Below are positions 13,291-25,778 of a stretch of DNA of 40,404 bases, one piece after another. A model generated the notes under the pieces. It worked only from the letters and a program-made list of their open reading frames with translations. It had not been told where the DNA came from and searched no databases. The position numbers and the translations under genes are program-made. Position 1 is the first letter of the stretch. Every line of letters begins with the position of its first letter. Source of the DNA: Actinomycetota bacterium (GTDB lineage: Bacteria; Actinomycetota; Actinomycetes; Actinomycetales; Kineosporiaceae); assembly GCA_016213575.1 (NCBI GenBank), contig JACRAB010000265.1:1-40404 (forward strand), given 5' to 3'.

Positions 13291-13752
13291 GTGACCCGCG
13301 CCCTTCGGGCCGCCCGGAGGACGGCGGAGCGCCCCGGCGACGAGGGCTTCACGCTCGTGGAGCTGCTCGTCGTCATGCTCGTCATCGGCATCCTCGCGGC
13401 CATCGCGATCCCGGTCATCGCCGACCAGCGGCAGAAGGCCCGGGACGCCTCGACCCGCTCCGACGTGAACCGGCTCGGCAAGCGCGTCGTCGAGCACTGG
13501 CTCGGGGCGACGGCGCCGCCGACCGTCGTCATCACCGCGGGCCGCTTCGTCGTGGCCGGGGACGACCTCGGCAAGACCAGCCCCGGCGTCGTCGTCGCGG
13601 GCGCCGACCCGGCGACCGTCGACACGACGGGCTGGACGGCGTCCGCCTGGTGCCTGGCGCTGACGCACCCCGACGGCTCGCTCGCCGGCGTCCGGTTCTC
13701 CGCCCAGCAGGGGCTCGAGAGCGGCGTCTGCTCGAGCCCGACCGCGCCCTGA
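13291..13752 (+). CDS. Type IV pilin (first of two adjacent pilin genes)
   Basis: Prepilin of 153 aa. The class III signal peptide ends at G19, followed by FTLVELLVVMLVIGILAAI with F at +1 and Glu at +5 of the mature protein. The hydrophobic N-helix (about 20-42) is the polymerisation domain. The globular part ends with two cysteines, in TASAWCLAL and QQGLESGVC, which likely close a D-region disulfide as in many pilins. GTG 13291 has GGAGGAGG upstream. The protein resembles the product of the next gene in overall plan and C-terminal motif, so one probably arose by duplication. It is likely transcribed with pilT and pilC, and so may be a less abundant subunit. Confidence 0.9.
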   Translation: MTRALRAARRTAERPGDEGFTLVELLVVMLVIGILAAIAIPVIADQRQKARDASTRSDVNRLGKRVVEHWLGATAPPTVVITAGRFVVAGDDLGKTSPGVVVAGADPATVDTTGWTASAWCLALTHPDGSLAGVRFSAQQGLESGVCSSPTAP

Positions 13753-13840
13753 GCGCGGGCCGCGGAGGACCGACGTCCCTGCGGCCTGGGCCGTCCGGGT
13801 GAACCGGCCACCCGAACGCAGCACCGGCCGGCCGGGGAAC

Positions 13841-13866
13841 CTCAAGAACCACCGTGGGGCGCCGAT
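13841..13866 (+). promoter_or_regulatory. Sigma-28-like promoter before the second pilin gene
   Basis: CTCAAG (13841-13846), 14 nt, GCCGAT (13861-13866). The predicted transcript starts near 13873, which supports ATG 13940 as the pilin start. Confidence 0.65.
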
Positions 13867-13939
13867 GCAGGACCGTCATCGTCAACCATCGCGGCGACCG
13901 CCCTCCGGCGGACGCCGAGCCTCGAGAAGGGCCCAGCGC

Positions 13940-14410
13940 ATGCTTGCTCGCATCCGCAAGTCCGTCGACGAGAAGGACTCGGGCTTCACGCTCATCGAGC
14001 TCCTCGTCGTCATGATCATCATCGGCATCCTCGCCGCGATCGCCATCCCCGTCTTCCTCTCGCAGCGGGCCAAGGCGCGCGACACCGCGGTCAAGGCCGA
14101 CGTGTCCACGCTCGGCAAGGAGATCGCGACCTACTTCGTCGACAACACCACGGCCCCCGCGGTGACGCTGACCTCGGGCCGCTACACGGTCGCCGGCTCC
14201 GACGCCGGCAAGGCGAGCAGCGGCGTCGCCGTCGTCACCACCTTCGGTGCGACCGCGACCGCCACCGGCGCCACGGCCACGACGACCGGCTGGACCGCGG
14301 CCGCGTGGTGCATCGCGCTCAACGACACGAACGGCAGCACGAAGACCTTCAAGTACTCGGCGCAGAACGGCCTCGAGTCGGGTCAGTGCGGCACGGCCAC
14401 CACGCCGTGA
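13940..14410 (+). CDS. pilA: Type IV pilin, probable major subunit
   Basis: Prepilin of 156 aa. From ATG 13940 the leader is 15 residues (MLARIRKSVDEKDSG), then FTLIELLVVMIIIGILAAIAI with Glu at +5. Upstream in-frame starts (GTG 13799, ATG 13865) would give an unusually long leader and lie before or on the promoter; AAGGG lies 8 nt before 13940. The globular domain has a Thr/Ala-rich stretch (TATATGATATTT) and two cysteines (AAAWCIAL, GLESGQC). Its own promoter, followed by a strong hairpin right after the gene, is the arrangement expected for the abundant major pilin; that role is inferred. Confidence 0.9.
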   Translation: MLARIRKSVDEKDSGFTLIELLVVMIIIGILAAIAIPVFLSQRAKARDTAVKADVSTLGKEIATYFVDNTTAPAVTLTSGRYTVAGSDAGKASSGVAVVTTFGATATATGATATTTGWTAAAWCIALNDTNGSTKTFKYSAQNGLESGQCGTATTP

Positions 14411-19567: not shown

Positions 19568-20617
19568 ATGGCGGGTCGAACCGCGATCGGTCTGGACATC
19601 GGGACCTCGGTCGTCCGCGCCGTCGAGCTGTCCTACGGACGCTCCGGCATCACCCTGGAGCGCTTCGGCCAGGTGGTGCTCCCCGAGGGCGCGGTGCGCG
19701 ACGGCGAGGTCGTCGACCCCGAGCCGGTGACGGCCTCGCTGCGGCAGCTCTGGAGCGCGACGGGCTTCTCGCACAAGCGCGTCGTCATGGGCGTCGCGAA
19801 CCAGCGCGTCATCGTCCGCCAGCTCGAGCTGCCGTGGATGCCCAAGGACGAGCTGCGCGTCAGCCTCCCCTTCCAGGTGCAGGACTTCCTGCCGATGCCC
19901 GTCGACCAGGCGGTGCTCGACTTCTTCCCCGTCGAGGAGACGACGGACGCCTCCGGCGCCCGCGCGCTGCGCGGCCTGCTCGTCGCCGCGGCCCGCGAGA
20001 CCGTGCTCGCGAACGTCCGCTGCGCCGAGAAGGCCGGCCTCACGGCGCTCTCGGTCGACCTCACCTCGTTCGCCGTCCTGCGGGCCATGGGCAAGCAGAC
20101 CGGCTCGGACGTCGAGACCGAGGCGCTCATCGACATCGGCGCCCGGGTGACGAACGTCGTCGTCCACTCCGCCGGGAGCCCGCGCTTCGTCCGCATCCTC
20201 CTCATGGGCGGCCAGGACATCACCGACGCGGTCGCCGACCGGCTCGGCATCACGGTCGCCGAGGCCGAGGCGCTCAAGCAGACCGCGGCCCACACCGGGT
20301 CCAGCGAGGACCTCGCGGCGGTCAACCGGGCGCTCACCGCCACCGCCCAGGAGTTCGTCGACGAGATCCGCAACTCCCTCGACTACTACGCCGCCTCGAC
20401 GCCGGGCGTCCCGCTCGAGCGGATCCTGCTCTCCGGCGGCGGCTCGCGGCTCGACGGTCTCGCCGAGCGGCTCTCCGCCGCGACCCGGCTGCCCGTCGTC
20501 GCGGGCGACCCGCTCGCCTCGCTGAAGATCGGCCGGACCGGCCTGGACGACAACCAGCTCGCGTTCGTCCGCCCGCTCGCGGCCGTCCCGGTCGGACTCG
20601 CCCTGGGAGCCATGTGA
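19568..20617 (+). CDS. pilM: Type IV pilus assembly protein PilM
   Basis: Actin-like ATPase fold protein (349 aa) that sits at the cytoplasmic face and binds the N-terminus of PilN. The phosphate-1 loop is GLDIGTSVVRAVEL near the N-terminus, the second phosphate loop region is ALIDIGARVTNVVV, and the adenosine motif is ILLSGGGSRLDGL. ATG 19568 follows CGGAGGGG. The last codon overlaps the next start (ATGTGATGA), so PilM and PilN are translationally coupled. Upstream in-frame GTG 19466 lies before the promoter and is rejected. Confidence 0.95.
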   Translation: MAGRTAIGLDIGTSVVRAVELSYGRSGITLERFGQVVLPEGAVRDGEVVDPEPVTASLRQLWSATGFSHKRVVMGVANQRVIVRQLELPWMPKDELRVSLPFQVQDFLPMPVDQAVLDFFPVEETTDASGARALRGLLVAAARETVLANVRCAEKAGLTALSVDLTSFAVLRAMGKQTGSDVETEALIDIGARVTNVVVHSAGSPRFVRILLMGGQDITDAVADRLGITVAEAEALKQTAAHTGSSEDLAAVNRALTATAQEFVDEIRNSLDYYAASTPGVPLERILLSGGGSRLDGLAERLSAATRLPVVAGDPLASLKIGRTGLDDNQLAFVRPLAAVPVGLALGAM

Positions 20618-21330
20618 TGACCGTCGACGCCCAGCAGCAGCCGGTCGAGGCCCTCGCCCCCGCCGGGGGCGGGGTCCGGGTCGACTGGGCCCCCGTGCCC
20701 AAGGTCAACCTCCTGCCCCGCGAGGTGCTCGACGCCCGCGCGTTCCGGCGGGTCCAGAAGCTGCTCGCCGGGGCCGTCGTCGGCACCGTCGCGGTGGCCG
20801 GCCTCGCGTTCGCGTGGTCCCTGCACGGGGTGCAGGTCGCGCAGGCGGACCTCGACGTGTCCCGCGCCCGGACCGCCCAGCTCCACACCGAGGAGGCCAA
20901 GTACGCCGACGTGCCGCGGGTGCTGTCCCGGGTCGAGCAGGCCAAGGCCGCGCGGACGGCGGCGCTCGGCTCCGACGTCCTGTGGTACCGGTTCTTCGAC
21001 GACCTCGCGGCGGCGACGCCGGACACGGTGTCGCTGACGAACGTCACGGTCGCGATGGACACCTCGGGCGCGCCGACGACGGCGACCGACCCGCTCACCC
21101 CGTCCGGCCTCGGCGCCGTCACCTTCACCGGCGGCGGCGACCGGTTCCCGGACGTCTCCACCTGGCTGGAGTCCGTGGGCAGCGTCGACGGTCTCGACGG
21201 CTCCACCCTGCAGAGCGCGACCCGGTCGGCCGGCGGCGGCACCGCCGACGACGGCCCGGTGACCTTCTCCTCGAAGATCGTCATCGACTCCAGCGCGCTC
21301 TCGCACCGCTTCGACGGGAAGGCGAGCTGA
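20617..21330 (+). CDS. pilN: Type IV pilus assembly protein PilN
   Basis: Bitopic membrane protein (237 aa) of the PilMNO alignment complex. The cytoplasmic N-terminus carries KVNLLPREV (about residues 29-37), the PilM-binding motif. One membrane helix follows (about 50-68, GAVVGTVAVAGLAFAW), then a coiled coil (VAQADLDVSRARTAQLHTEE) and a ferredoxin-like periplasmic-type domain. Overlaps pilM by one base and is 2 nt before pilO. Confidence 0.92.
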   Translation: MTVDAQQQPVEALAPAGGGVRVDWAPVPKVNLLPREVLDARAFRRVQKLLAGAVVGTVAVAGLAFAWSLHGVQVAQADLDVSRARTAQLHTEEAKYADVPRVLSRVEQAKAARTAALGSDVLWYRFFDDLAAATPDTVSLTNVTVAMDTSGAPTTATDPLTPSGLGAVTFTGGGDRFPDVSTWLESVGSVDGLDGSTLQSATRSAGGGTADDGPVTFSSKIVIDSSALSHRFDGKAS

Positions 21331-21332
21331 CC

Positions 21333-22166
21333 ATGCTGACGAGCCGCACCGCCCGGTGGGTCGCCGGCACGACGCTCCTGTGCGTCGCCCTGCTCGGCCT
21401 GAGCTGGCTGCTCCTGGTGTCGCCGCAGCGCACCGAGGCCGCCGAGCTGCGCGACCAGAACGCCGCGACGCAGAGCCAGAACGACCTGCTCGAGGTGAAG
21501 ATCGCCCAGCTCCGCGCGCAGTTCGCCAAGCTCCCCGAGAGCCAGGCCGAGCTCGCCTCGATCCTCGCGCAGATGCCGCCGGACGCCGGGATGCCGCGGC
21601 TCGTCCGCGACCTCGACGCGATGTCCGAGAGCACCGGGGTGACCCTCTCGAGCGTCACGCCCGGCCCGGCCGTCAGCGTCAGGTCGGGGACCACCGTGCC
21701 GGGCGCGGCCGCCGCGGCGCCCACCGCCGCCGCCACCGCGGCCGCGGCCGCCGGGACCGCCGTCGACGGGTCCACGGTCGTCGCCATCCCGGTCACCGTC
21801 GCGATCGACGGCGACTACTTCCAGACCGTGGCGTTCCTCAAGCAGCTCCAGACCCAGATGCCGAGGGCCTTCCTCGTGACGGCCGTCCAGATGTCCGCCG
21901 GCAGCGCCGGCGGCGCGGACGCCTCGGCGACCGGCGGGAACGTCGCCGTGACGATCACCGGCAAGGTCTTCGCCCTGCCGGGGATGAGCGCCGACGTCCT
22001 CACGACCGGCACGGGCACCACCGGCGGCGCGGCCGGCAGCCCGATGTCCACGGCCACGGCCGGCGCCACCCCCGGCGCGTCCCCCGCAGCCGCCCCGACC
22101 GCCTCCGCCCCCGCGGCGACGGCCACCCCGGCGCCGACCGCCACCGCCACGCAGGAGGTCTCGTGA
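21333..22166 (+). CDS. pilO: Type IV pilus assembly protein PilO
   Basis: Bitopic membrane protein (277 aa) that dimerises with PilN. The membrane helix is near residues 9-28 (WVAGTTLLCVALLGLSWLLL), followed by a coiled coil (AAELRDQNAATQSQNDLLEV) and the PilO ferredoxin-like domain with VTVAIDGDYFQTVAFLKQL. Two additions are unusual: an Ala-rich loop (AAAAAPTAAATAAAAAG) inside the domain, and a Thr/Ala/Pro-rich tail of about 55 residues. The stop overlaps the next GTG. Confidence 0.9.
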   Translation: MLTSRTARWVAGTTLLCVALLGLSWLLLVSPQRTEAAELRDQNAATQSQNDLLEVKIAQLRAQFAKLPESQAELASILAQMPPDAGMPRLVRDLDAMSESTGVTLSSVTPGPAVSVRSGTTVPGAAAAAPTAAATAAAAAGTAVDGSTVVAIPVTVAIDGDYFQTVAFLKQLQTQMPRAFLVTAVQMSAGSAGGADASATGGNVAVTITGKVFALPGMSADVLTTGTGTTGGAAGSPMSTATAGATPGASPAAAPTASAPAATATPAPTATATQEVS

Positions 22167-22909
22167 GCCAGGAGCCGCAGTTCGGGTCCCTCTTCGGTGC
22201 CCCGGCGGGCTCGCCGTCGGCGCCGGTGCCCCCGGTCCCGCCCGGCACGGCCGAGGTCGTCCAGGGCGGCCCGTCGGCCGCCCGGCCCGCGGCCACGGCC
22301 TGGTACCGCCGGCGCGAGGCCGTCGTCGCCGGTGCCGGCCTCGGGGTCGCGGGCGTCCTCGGCGCGGTCGCCTTCGTCGTCCTCGGCGGCGGCGGTGACG
22401 ACCTCACGGCGACCGGGGCCACGGTGGCCCGCTCGCCGCGCAGCGCGACGGCGACCGGGACGGCGGTCCCGACGACCGGCACCGTCCGCCCAGCCAACCG
22501 CAACCCCTTCTCGGGGAAGGCCGCGGCCGCCGGTACCGGTTCGGCCGGCACGACTGCCGCCACCACGACGACGCCCGCCGCGGCGACGACGGTCGTCAAG
22601 ACGGTCAGCTCGGTCGTCACGACGACGAAGACGTCGACGCGGACGACGACGAAGACGAGGACGACGACCGCGACGGCCACCGTCACCGCGACCCCGACCT
22701 ACGTCTACCTGCTCTCCCTGACCGGCGCCGCGGGGGACGCGGTCTTCGTCGTCAACGGCGAGGAGAAGGCGGCGGCCTCCCCGAACGACACCGTCGTGAC
22801 GAACCTGGAGTACACCGGGACCTCGAGCGCCACCTGCGCGAAGGTGTCCTGGAAGGCCGGCGCGGCCCAGACGATCTGCGTCGGGGCGGGGACCCGCGTC
22901 GACGACTGA
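22163..22909 (+). CDS. PilP-like pilus accessory membrane protein
   Basis: 248-aa protein, last of the pilMNO operon. A Pro-rich cytoplasmic segment (1-46), one membrane helix (about 53-76, AVVAGAGLGVAGVLGAVAFVV), an ANRNPF motif at 111-116, a Thr-rich linker (TTKTSTRTTTKTRTTTATAT) and a C-terminal beta domain (about 182-248, YVYLLSLTG, AVFVVNGEE, ICVGAGT). The NPF motif before a beta domain recalls the DPF/NPF of PilP and GspC HR domains. With no outer membrane or secretin its partner is unclear. GTG 22163 overlaps the pilO stop and follows GGAGG. The PilP assignment is inference from position and plan. Confidence 0.7.
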   Translation: MSQEPQFGSLFGAPAGSPSAPVPPVPPGTAEVVQGGPSAARPAATAWYRRREAVVAGAGLGVAGVLGAVAFVVLGGGGDDLTATGATVARSPRSATATGTAVPTTGTVRPANRNPFSGKAAAAGTGSAGTTAATTTTPAAATTVVKTVSSVVTTTKTSTRTTTKTRTTTATATVTATPTYVYLLSLTGAAGDAVFVVNGEEKAAASPNDTVVTNLEYTGTSSATCAKVSWKAGAAQTICVGAGTRVDD

Positions 22910-22936: not shown

Positions 22937-24136
22937 ATGCTTCGCTGGCTCACGGCGGGGGAGTCCCACGGCCCCGCACTCGTCGGCGTCCTCGAAGGTC
23001 TGCCCGCCGGGGTGCGGGTGACCAGCGACGACGTCCAGGCTGCCCTCGAGCGCCGACGTCTCGGCCACGGCCGGGGCGCGCGCATGAAGTTCGAGCAGGA
23101 CGCCGTCCGCTTCCTCGGCGGGCTCCGGCACGGCCTGACCCAGGGCGGCCCGGTCGCCGTCGAGGTCGGGAACACCGAGTGGCCCAAGTGGGAGACGGTC
23201 ATGTCGGCGGACCCGGTGCCGCAGGACGTCCTCGACGCGCAGGCGCGCAACGCCCCGCTGACCCGGCCGCGGCCGGGCCACGCCGACCTCGTCGGCATGC
23301 AGAAGTACGGCTTCGACGACGCCCGCCCGGTCCTCGAGCGGGCCAGCGCCCGCGAGACCGCGGCCCGGGTCGCGCTCGGCGCCGTGGCGTCGGCGTTCCT
23401 CGAGCAGGCCGCCGGGGTCCGGCTCGTCAGCCACACCGTGGGGATCGGCCCCGTCGAGGTGCCCGAGGGCAGCGACCTGCCCGGCCCGGACGACGTCAAG
23501 GCGCTCGACGCCGACCCGGTGCGCTGCCACGACGCCGCGACGAGCGCCGCGATGGTCGCCGAGATCGACGCCTGCCGCAAGGACGGCGACACCGTCGGCG
23601 GGATCGTCGAGGTCGTCGCCTACGGGCTGCCGCCGGGCCTGGGCAGCCACGTGCACTGGGACCGCCGGCTCGACGCCCGGCTCGCCGGCGCCCTCATGGG
23701 CGTCCAGGCGCTCAAGGGGGTCGAGGTCGGCGACGGCTTCACGACCGCCCGGCGCCGCGGCTCCCCCGCGCACGACGAGATCGAGCGGGTGGACGGCGTC
23801 ATCCGGCGCCGGACCGGGCGCGCCGGTGGCACCGAGGGCGGCATGAGCACGGGCGACGTGCTGCGCGTGCGGGCCGCGATGAAGCCGATCTCGACCGTCC
23901 CGCGGGCGCTCGACACCGTCGACGTCGCGACCGGCGAGGCCGCCGTCGCGATCAACCAGCGCTCCGACGTGTGCGCCGTCCCGGCCGCCGGGGTGGTCGC
24001 CGAGGCGATGGTCGCGCTCGTGCTCGCCGACGCCGTCCTGGAGAAGTTCGGCGGCGACAGCGTCACCGAGACCGCGCGCAACGTCCGCTCCTACCTCGAC
24101 GCGCTGCCGGACCTGCTCCGCAGCGAGGGCTCGTGA
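22937..24136 (+). CDS. aroC: Chorismate synthase
   Basis: Converts 5-enolpyruvylshikimate-3-phosphate to chorismate using reduced FMN. The 399-aa length is standard. Family signatures are visible: [18 protein letters not shown] at the N-terminus with its catalytic His, the [12 protein letters not shown] segment, [16 protein letters not shown], and [21 protein letters not shown] with the FMN region. ATG 22937 is 27 nt after the pilus genes. aroK and aroB follow with overlapping stops, so the three form an operon. Confidence 0.97.
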
Positions 24137-24681
24137 GCGGCGCCGCCCCCGACGACGCCGCAGCGGTCCGCCCCGCCGTCGTGCTCGTCGGCCCGATGGG
24201 CTCGGGCAAGTCGACGGTGGGCCGGCTCGTCGCCGACCGGCTGGGGGTGGCCCTGCGCGACACCGACGCCGACGTCGAGACGGTCGCCGGCAAGTCGGTC
24301 TCCGACGTGTTCGTCGACGACGGCGAGCCGGTGTTCCGGGACCTGGAGCGGGCCGCCGTCGCGACCGCGCTGCGCGAGCACCCCGGTGTGCTCGCGCTCG
24401 GCGGCGGCGCCGTCATGGACCCGCTCACCGAGGACGCCCTGCAGGGCCACACCGTCGTCTTCCTCGACGTCCAGGTCACCGACGCGGCCCGCCGGATCGG
24501 CCTCAACCGGGACCGGCCGCTGCTGCTCGGCAACCCGCGCGCGCAGTGGCTGCGGATCATGGAGCGTCGTCGCCCGGTCTACGAGCGGGTCGCGACCGCC
24601 GTCGTCGCGACCGACGGCCGCAGCCCCGAGGAGGTCGCGGTGGCGGTCCTCGACGCGCTCGGTCTCACGGCGGACGCGTGA
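24133..24681 (+). CDS. aroK: Shikimate kinase
   Basis: ATP-dependent phosphorylation of shikimate at the 3-OH. Walker [10 protein letters not shown] is at residues 20-28, the shikimate-binding Asp is in RDTDAD (42-47), Arg69 in FRDLE, the glycine triplet is LGGGAVM, and the lid/adenine segment carries RPLL. The 182 aa are typical. GTG 24133 overlaps the aroC stop and the gene's own stop overlaps the aroB start, indicating coupled translation. Confidence 0.96.
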
Positions 24682-25778
24682 GCGGCCCGACCCGGCTGCG
24701 CGTCGGCGCCGGTACCGCGGGCGACCCGGCCGGCCCGAACGCCTACGACGTCGTCGTCGGGCACGACCTCCTCGGCGCGCTGCCGGGCCTGCTCGCGGGC
24801 GCGCAGCGGGTGCTCGTCGTCCATCCCGCCGGTCTGCGCGCGCGCGGCGAGGCGGTCCGGGCGGACCTGCTCGCGGCCGGGTTCGAGGCCTATGTCACCG
24901 AGGTCCCGGACGGCGAGGCGGCCAAGACCGCCGGCGTCCTCGCCGACTGCTGGGGCGTGCTCGGGCGGGCCGGCTTCACCCGGACCGACGCGGTCGTCGG
25001 CGTCGGCGGGGGAGCGGTGACCGACCTCGCGGGCTTCGTCGCGTCGACGTGGCTGCGCGGGGTGCGGGTCGTCCAGGTCCCGACGACGCTGCTCGCGATG
25101 GTCGACGCGGCGGTCGGCGGCAAGACCGGCATCAACACCGCGGAGGGCAAGAACCTCGTCGGCGCGTTCCACCCGCCGGCCGGCGTGCTCTGCGACCTGT
25201 CGGCGCTGGCGACCCTGCCGCCGGACGACCTCGTCGCCGGCCTCGCCGAGGTCGTCAAGACCGGCTTCATCGCCGACCCGCGGATCCTCGACCTGATCGA
25301 GGGCGACCGCGCCGCGGCGACGTCCTGGGACTCCCCGGTGCTCCGTGAGCTCGTCGAGCGCAGCGTCGCCGTCAAGGCCCGCGTCGTCACCGAGGACCTC
25401 AAGGAGTCCCACCTGCGAGAGATCCTCAACTACGGCCACACCTTCGGCCACGCCGTCGAGCAGGTCGAGGGGTACACCTGGCGGCACGGCGCGGCGGTGA
25501 GCCTGGGCATGGTCTTCGCCGCCGAGCTCGGGCGGCTCGCCGGGAGCACCCCGGCGGCCCTCGTCGACCGGCACCGTGAGGTGCTCGGCACCCTCGGCCT
25601 CCCGCTGACCTACCCGGCGGGCCGCTGGGAGACCCTGCTCGACGTCATGCGCCGGGACAAGAAGACCCGCGGCGACCTGCTGCGCTTCGTCGTCCTCGAG
25701 GACGTCGGCCGGCCGGTGCGGCTCGAGGGCCCCGACCCCGACCTGCTCGTCGGGGCCTACGCGGCCGTCAGCGCGTAG
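24678..25778 (+). CDS. aroB: 3-dehydroquinate synthase
   Basis: NAD- and metal-dependent cyclisation of DAHP to 3-dehydroquinate. Family motifs are GVGGGAVTDLAGFVAST, the PTTLLAMVDAAVGGKTGIN substrate segment, GLAEVVKTGF with the metal-binding Glu, and NYGHTFGHAVE with the metal-binding His. Length 366 aa. GTG 24678 overlaps the aroK stop. Its last 11 bases overlap the 3' end of the convergent HxlR-type gene. Confidence 0.97.
   Translation: MSGPTRLRVGAGTAGDPAGPNAYDVVVGHDLLGALPGLLAGAQRVLVVHPAGLRARGEAVRADLLAAGFEAYVTEVPDGEAAKTAGVLADCWGVLGRAGFTRTDAVVGVGGGAVTDLAGFVASTWLRGVRVVQVPTTLLAMVDAAVGGKTGINTAEGKNLVGAFHPPAGVLCDLSALATLPPDDLVAGLAEVVKTGFIADPRILDLIEGDRAAATSWDSPVLRELVERSVAVKARVVTEDLKESHLREILNYGHTFGHAVEQVEGYTWRHGAAVSLGMVFAAELGRLAGSTPAALVDRHREVLGTLGLPLTYPAGRWETLLDVMRRDKKTRGDLLRFVVLEDVGRPVRLEGPDPDLLVGAYAAVSA

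Follow-up and report, generated by a model that had tools for sequence, protein, structure and literature searches.

The stretch of DNA analysed here, referred to as the window, is the whole 40,404-nucleotide contig JACRAB010000265.1 of a 5.9 Mb genome that is 88.6% complete and has Kineosporia as its near relatives. A pilMNO operon on its forward strand is followed by one further small gene and then by aroC, aroK and aroB:

19568-20617, forward strand: pilM (Pfam PilM_2, 1.2e-52)
20614-21330, forward strand: pilN, with an NLLP motif near the N-terminus (Pfam PilN, 22.7 bits, just under the cut-off of 22.8; motif from the sequence)
21333-22166, forward strand: pilO (Pfam PilO, 2.8e-09, 37.7 bits)
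22153-22158, forward strand: AGGAGG ribosome-binding site of the PilP-like gene (from the sequence)
22163-22909, forward strand: PilP-like gene, 248 aa (coding supported by codon differences against relatives)
22319-22387, forward strand: transmembrane anchor, about residues 53-75 (hydropathy)
22499-22510, forward strand: RNPF motif, residues 113-116 (sequence; conservation in alignments)
22511-22687, forward strand: Thr-rich linker, residues 117-175 (sequence)
22688-22900, forward strand: putative degenerate HR-like C-terminal domain, about residues 176-246, with a Cys225/Cys239 pair (profile comparisons; Cys pair from the sequence)
22937-24136, forward strand: aroC, at the place of the E. 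coli secretin gene hofQ (Pfam Chorismate_synt, 2.9e-114; E. coli order)
24133-24681, forward strand: aroK, start approximate (open frame; named from sequence and position)
24678-25778, forward strand: aroB, start approximate (open frame; named from sequence and position)

The NLLP motif of PilN binds PilM. The gene at 22163-22909 closes the operon, with pilM, pilN and pilO ahead of it and aroC next, and it opens with a GTG codon whose reading frame overlaps the end of pilO, stop codon included, by 4 bp. Its product has a single transmembrane segment, and threonine makes up 25 of the 60 residues between positions 117 and 176. The earlier note had described this arrangement of a last pilMNO gene encoding a membrane anchor, an NPF motif, a Thr-rich linker and a C-terminal domain, and all of these elements are present. 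The cytoplasmic N-terminus (22163-22320) also contains an FG motif (SLFGAP), possibly a second short docking motif; N-terminal motifs of the form xxFGxP or [NS]PF occur in 13 of the 27 order-level members described below and in none of the 57 phylum members (first 40 residues). Elsewhere in the same cluster, two major-pilin-like genes stand in tandem at 13291-14410 and encode type IV prepilin leaders; additional pilin-like genes extend up to 18477, all named by eye.

Codon differences against close relatives number 23 synonymous and 10 non-synonymous for L006, and 26 and 11 for L007, and this excess of synonymous change indicates a real gene under purifying selection. The libraries searched, Pfam included, returned no family match or name for the window protein alone, and relatives were therefore sought by position, downstream of pilM. 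PilM was detected in 77 of 198 genomes of the order and in 209 of 396 genomes of the phylum, and the regions that follow it were compared in 75 order loci and in 60 phylum loci hand-picked for family spread; PilO was detected in 67 and 59 of these, respectively, the phylum exception being L134. Phylum members were picked by position after pilO, except in L132 and L184, where the motif guided a second choice of frame; the set leaves out L168 and L171, where the gene was missing or not in frame. Selection of the 27 order-level members relied on the motif itself, so that their motif counts are not independent.

In 57 of the 60 phylum loci the open frame after pilO follows the same plan, consisting of a transmembrane segment or lipobox, about 37-98 residues, a [FY]xx[RK]DPFxPL motif, a linker and, mostly, a C-terminal domain. 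The anchor is a lipobox in 7 of the 57 and mostly a transmembrane segment otherwise, and aroC follows the gene in most phylum loci, at least 523 bp behind pilO. The core of the motif, [RKN][DN]PF, occurs in 51 of the 57 proteins, against a mean of 0.3 in shuffled copies of the same sequences, and R113 and F116 are invariant in the 28-sequence alignment of the window protein with its 27 motif-picked relatives. This RxPF motif is the best conserved part of the family, above the C-terminal domain, and it has counterparts in diderm PilP proteins (RDPFKPP in E. coli HofP, RSPF in Aeromonas PilP and KSPF in Acinetobacter PilP); we read it as a trait that may define the PilP family. In L071-L073 and L077 the RDPF motif is kept and the C-terminal domain is apparently swapped for a probably helical segment ending in ..RTACA or ..RSACS. 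The f15 group (alignment A3) matched the phylum profile at the motif only.

Profile comparisons connect the C-terminal domain of the phylum members to that of known PilP proteins. A domain profile of 45 phylum members matched the HR domains of seven diderm PilPs with a probability of 77 and an E-value of 2e-5, and its score of 28.6 exceeded that of all 200 column shuffles, the best of which reached 16.6. Among curated models, TIGR03021 (pilP_fam) matched the largest number of the 45 members (17, best 8.4e-8), with further matches to T2SSB (7), GspC_delta (5, best 2.7e-6), PF04351 (4, best 1e-4) and T2SSC (1); wherever scores are shown, those for the PilP-family models, GspC_delta and T2SSB lie below the curated cut-off, which for TIGR03021 is 34.65 bits. 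Where positions are shown, the PilP and T2SSB matches cover the C-terminal domain, the match in L153 beginning at the motif. PF04351 did not exceed its curated cut-off in any of 198 phylum genomes, and its weak matches there, mostly to frames of about 530-650 aa, were set aside. The same model misses the E. coli control although E. coli K-12 has HofP, which marks it as narrow.

The domain is strongly conserved in the deep lineages of the phylum and seldom recognisable in the order of the window. For an HR HMM, 45 of the 57 phylum members served as input and 12 were held out; of these 12, four (L139, L158, L160 and L185) matched the first HR model at E<1e-3; the domain is recognised in 51 of the 57 phylum members, most of which are in the model, but in 4 of 30 order-level members. 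The window domain alone reaches an E-value of 0.8 against this HMM, as measured on a near-identical copy in L038, and the window group gives no match when compared directly with the diderm PilP HR domains (probability 0.5). The connection runs instead through near relatives. The set {window, L038, L041} matched {L040, L042, L051, L052} with a probability of 89 (E 2e-6) and the phylum profile with a probability of 30 (E 5.5e-4), with 0/60 shuffles as good in both cases, and {L040, L042, L051, L052} matched the phylum profile with a probability of 98.7 (E 4e-16). The corresponding values for the whole window group (probability 99.3, E 8e-21) are probably carried largely by its nearer members. 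Judged by this chain of profiles, the window domain is a degenerate member of the HR family, joined to it stepwise. That it is a beta domain, as the earlier note had proposed, rests on the same profile homology; an AlphaFold model of the C-terminal 78 residues, computed from 3 near-identical sequences, was of low confidence (pLDDT 46.6).

A Cx12C-type cysteine pair is common to 21 of the 57 phylum members and 6 of the 27 order-level members; it reads CAxxxxGDxxFTLC in the phylum and CAKVSWKAGAAQTIC in the window. Other comparisons of the phylum profile gave a probability of 7 with full-length diderm PilP (a poor, misaligned 4-sequence alignment) and an uninformative result with one E. coli GspC. 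A direct profile comparison with two GspC HR sequences gave no match (probability 1.8). PDB profile searches with the 28-sequence and 45-member alignments returned mostly low-complexity or transmembrane matches, M. xanthus PilP appearing at an E-value of 2.7.

No counterpart of the secretin that PilP holds in diderms was found at the locus or in the genome. Neither a PF00263 secretin at E<=1 nor N0-type domains (PF07660, PF21305) below E 0.48 were found in the 88.6% complete genome of the window, and PF00263 exceeded its cut-off in 1 of 80 operon-bearing genomes, nearly all of which have the PilP-like gene. That sole match (L190, genome G494) lies on a contig other than that of pilM and may be contamination. 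We take the sampled genomes to be monoderm from general knowledge of the phylum. In E. coli the gene order is hofM-N-O-P-Q-aroK-aroB, with aroC elsewhere, and in the window it is pilM-N-O-P-aroC-aroK-aroB: the window gene fills the P slot and the secretin slot is empty. The suggestion in the earlier note of a PilP-like protein in an organism without a secretin is supported, and extends across the phylum through the 57 conserved loci, the near absence of secretins and the HR profile match.

Several known systems come close to the protein. Like diderm type IVa PilP (PF04351; E. coli HofP), members of the family occupy the slot after pilO and combine a membrane anchor, an RxPF-type motif in a disordered arm and a small C-terminal domain. 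Diderm PilP carries a lipobox, whereas the family described here mostly has a transmembrane anchor; it also differs in having no secretin gene next to it, in the Cx12C-type cysteine pair of some members and in Pfam matches that fall under the cut-off. The window protein itself sits in the slot after pilMNO with an RxPF-type motif in an anchored, disordered arm, and shows no match to PF04351 over its cut-off and no secretin in its genome to bind. The plan also resembles that of GspC (T2SSC) of type II secretion, which has a cytoplasmic N-terminus, a transmembrane segment, a linker and an HR domain. Unlike GspC, however, the window protein is encoded in a pilMNO operon without a secretin and has no Pfam domain, T2SSC matches a single one of the 45 members, and no PDZ domain was found in the scanned PilP-like members; the combination that identifies GspC, an HR domain plus a PDZ or coiled-coil C-terminus in a type II operon with GspD, is not seen. 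PilW of Thermus thermophilus is described as a flexible protein in the pilP slot with no sequence similarity to PilP and an HR-like C-terminal domain (PMC13039148). Among known cases of a divergent protein in the P slot it comes nearest as a precedent; its host has an outer membrane and PilQ.

The loci that lack the gene bear on the role of the motif. In 27 order loci aroC lies within 300 bp of pilO, which leaves no room for a PilP-like gene. The last 40 residues of PilO carry the motif [NDS][PVAI]Fx[PGDVR] in 14 of these 27 gene-less loci (for example SRNPFVPVP, ERDPFGVVV and RKNVFAPER) against 1 of 84 gene-bearing loci, the Fisher value of 1e-9 being computed on loci that are not independent events. 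These counts come from the stricter pattern, a looser expression probably mislabelling L049 as carrying and L102 as lacking the motif, and a position-specific score gives a similar division (13/27 against 2/84). Several other gene-less loci have weakened forms (KNPMIPV, KSPYTPV, ANPLVPV), and no NPF-type motif was found in the C-terminal tail of the window PilO, as examined in the near-identical L038. Since the loci with a tail motif come from two families that cluster in what is essentially a single part of the PilM tree, they represent one or two events rather than many. In a sister genus within the family of the window (L044-L049), pilMNO lies beside aroC with neither a PilP-like gene nor a PilO-tail motif; PilM, PilN and PilO are kept there, so that the element must be dispensable in these organisms. 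In another family (L103, L105, L107, L108 and L111), a large open frame follows pilO, which lacks the motif; judged by eye, this frame in L105, L107 and L111 resembles an exported protein with RCC1-type repeats.

On this evidence, we consider it probable (roughly 0.7) that the window gene is an actinobacterial PilP homologue whose motif docks on PilN/PilO and whose HR domain has a partner other than a secretin and is eroding in the order of the window. The homology draws on the operon slot, the conservation of the motif, the homology of the domain (reached step by step for the window protein, which is among the more divergent members), the absence of a secretin and the motif on PilO tails. In Pseudomonas aeruginosa, PilP binds PilNO through its unstructured N-terminal stretch (about residues 18-76) and PilQ through its C-terminal domain (PMC5805733); the RNPF motif lies in the matching arm, which makes it a candidate PilNO-docking element. 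The protein would be anchored in the cytoplasmic membrane, with its [RK]-[DN]-P-F segment outside the membrane docking on the PilN/PilO complex, and this docking may help to hold the PilMNO assembly platform together by stabilising PilNO. The HR-type domain would be carried on a flexible linker, at the end away from the motif. In diderms this domain holds the secretin; with no secretin here, it would be free for another partner, or for none. A docking role fits both the stronger conservation of the motif compared with the HR domain and the fact that the motif turns up again on PilO.

Such a far-end partner might be the cell wall. An HR domain kept without a secretin would need something to hold, the wall is the obvious barrier, and how monoderm pili cross it is left open in a review (PMC6916266). 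The earlier note had seen in the Thr-rich linker a segment suited to spanning the wall, with the protein possibly contacting peptidoglycan or a wall pore protein. The distance from motif to domain, however, varies from 19 to 153 residues among phylum members (median 47), with linkers of merely 27-36 residues in some lipobox-anchored forms, and a wall-spanning linker is for that reason unsupported. Scanning of members of the family revealed no domain that binds the cell wall, and most order-level members have the HR domain in degenerate form or another segment in its place. We therefore regard a wall adaptor as unlikely.

Less likely still is that an unrelated small membrane protein came to occupy the P slot by chance, its RNPF motif and C-terminal domain converging on those of PilP. 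The window protein has no direct PilP sequence match, and PilW shows that the slot can be filled by a protein dissimilar to PilP in sequence; the stepwise profile chain, the shared motif, the lipobox forms, the conserved slot and the pilP_fam matches argue for common descent instead. A decaying relic of an outer-membrane era, with little present function, would suit the scarcity of recognisable HR domains in the order and the 27 gene-less loci, but it is very improbable given the purifying selection on the gene, its retention in 57 of 60 phylum loci and the motif that persists on PilO tails in loci without the gene.

A broader proposal, for which we consider the odds about even, is that PilP did not arise as a diderm invention for holding a secretin, that a PilP with an HR domain is part of the PilMNO module throughout a monoderm phylum that has no secretins, that the [RK][DN]PF peptide is its essential part, and that in some lineages this peptide moved to the PilO tail while the rest of PilP was lost. 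Under this proposal, the gene order common to the window and E. coli points to descent from a diderm that went on to lose both secretin and outer membrane. Two reviews hold that Gram-positive or monoderm piliated bacteria have no PilP. In one, Gram-positive piliated species are said to lack PilP, which is hence thought unlikely to act in filament assembly (PMC4471445); in the other, PilP is reported absent in Streptococcus sanguinis, its absence in monoderms is called logical and its requirement in the minimal assembly machinery is considered probably only indirect (PMC6916266). In the portions of the open-licence literature available to us, no description of PilP in Actinobacteria was found.

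A PilP homologue kept across a phylum that lacks an outer-membrane pore suggests that PilP has a role besides linking the inner machine to the pore. A secretin-free PilP of phylum-wide occurrence would reopen the conclusion drawn from its absence in Gram-positive species, would provide a clean system in which its work at PilNO can be told apart from that at the secretin, and may serve as a marker of outer-membrane loss.
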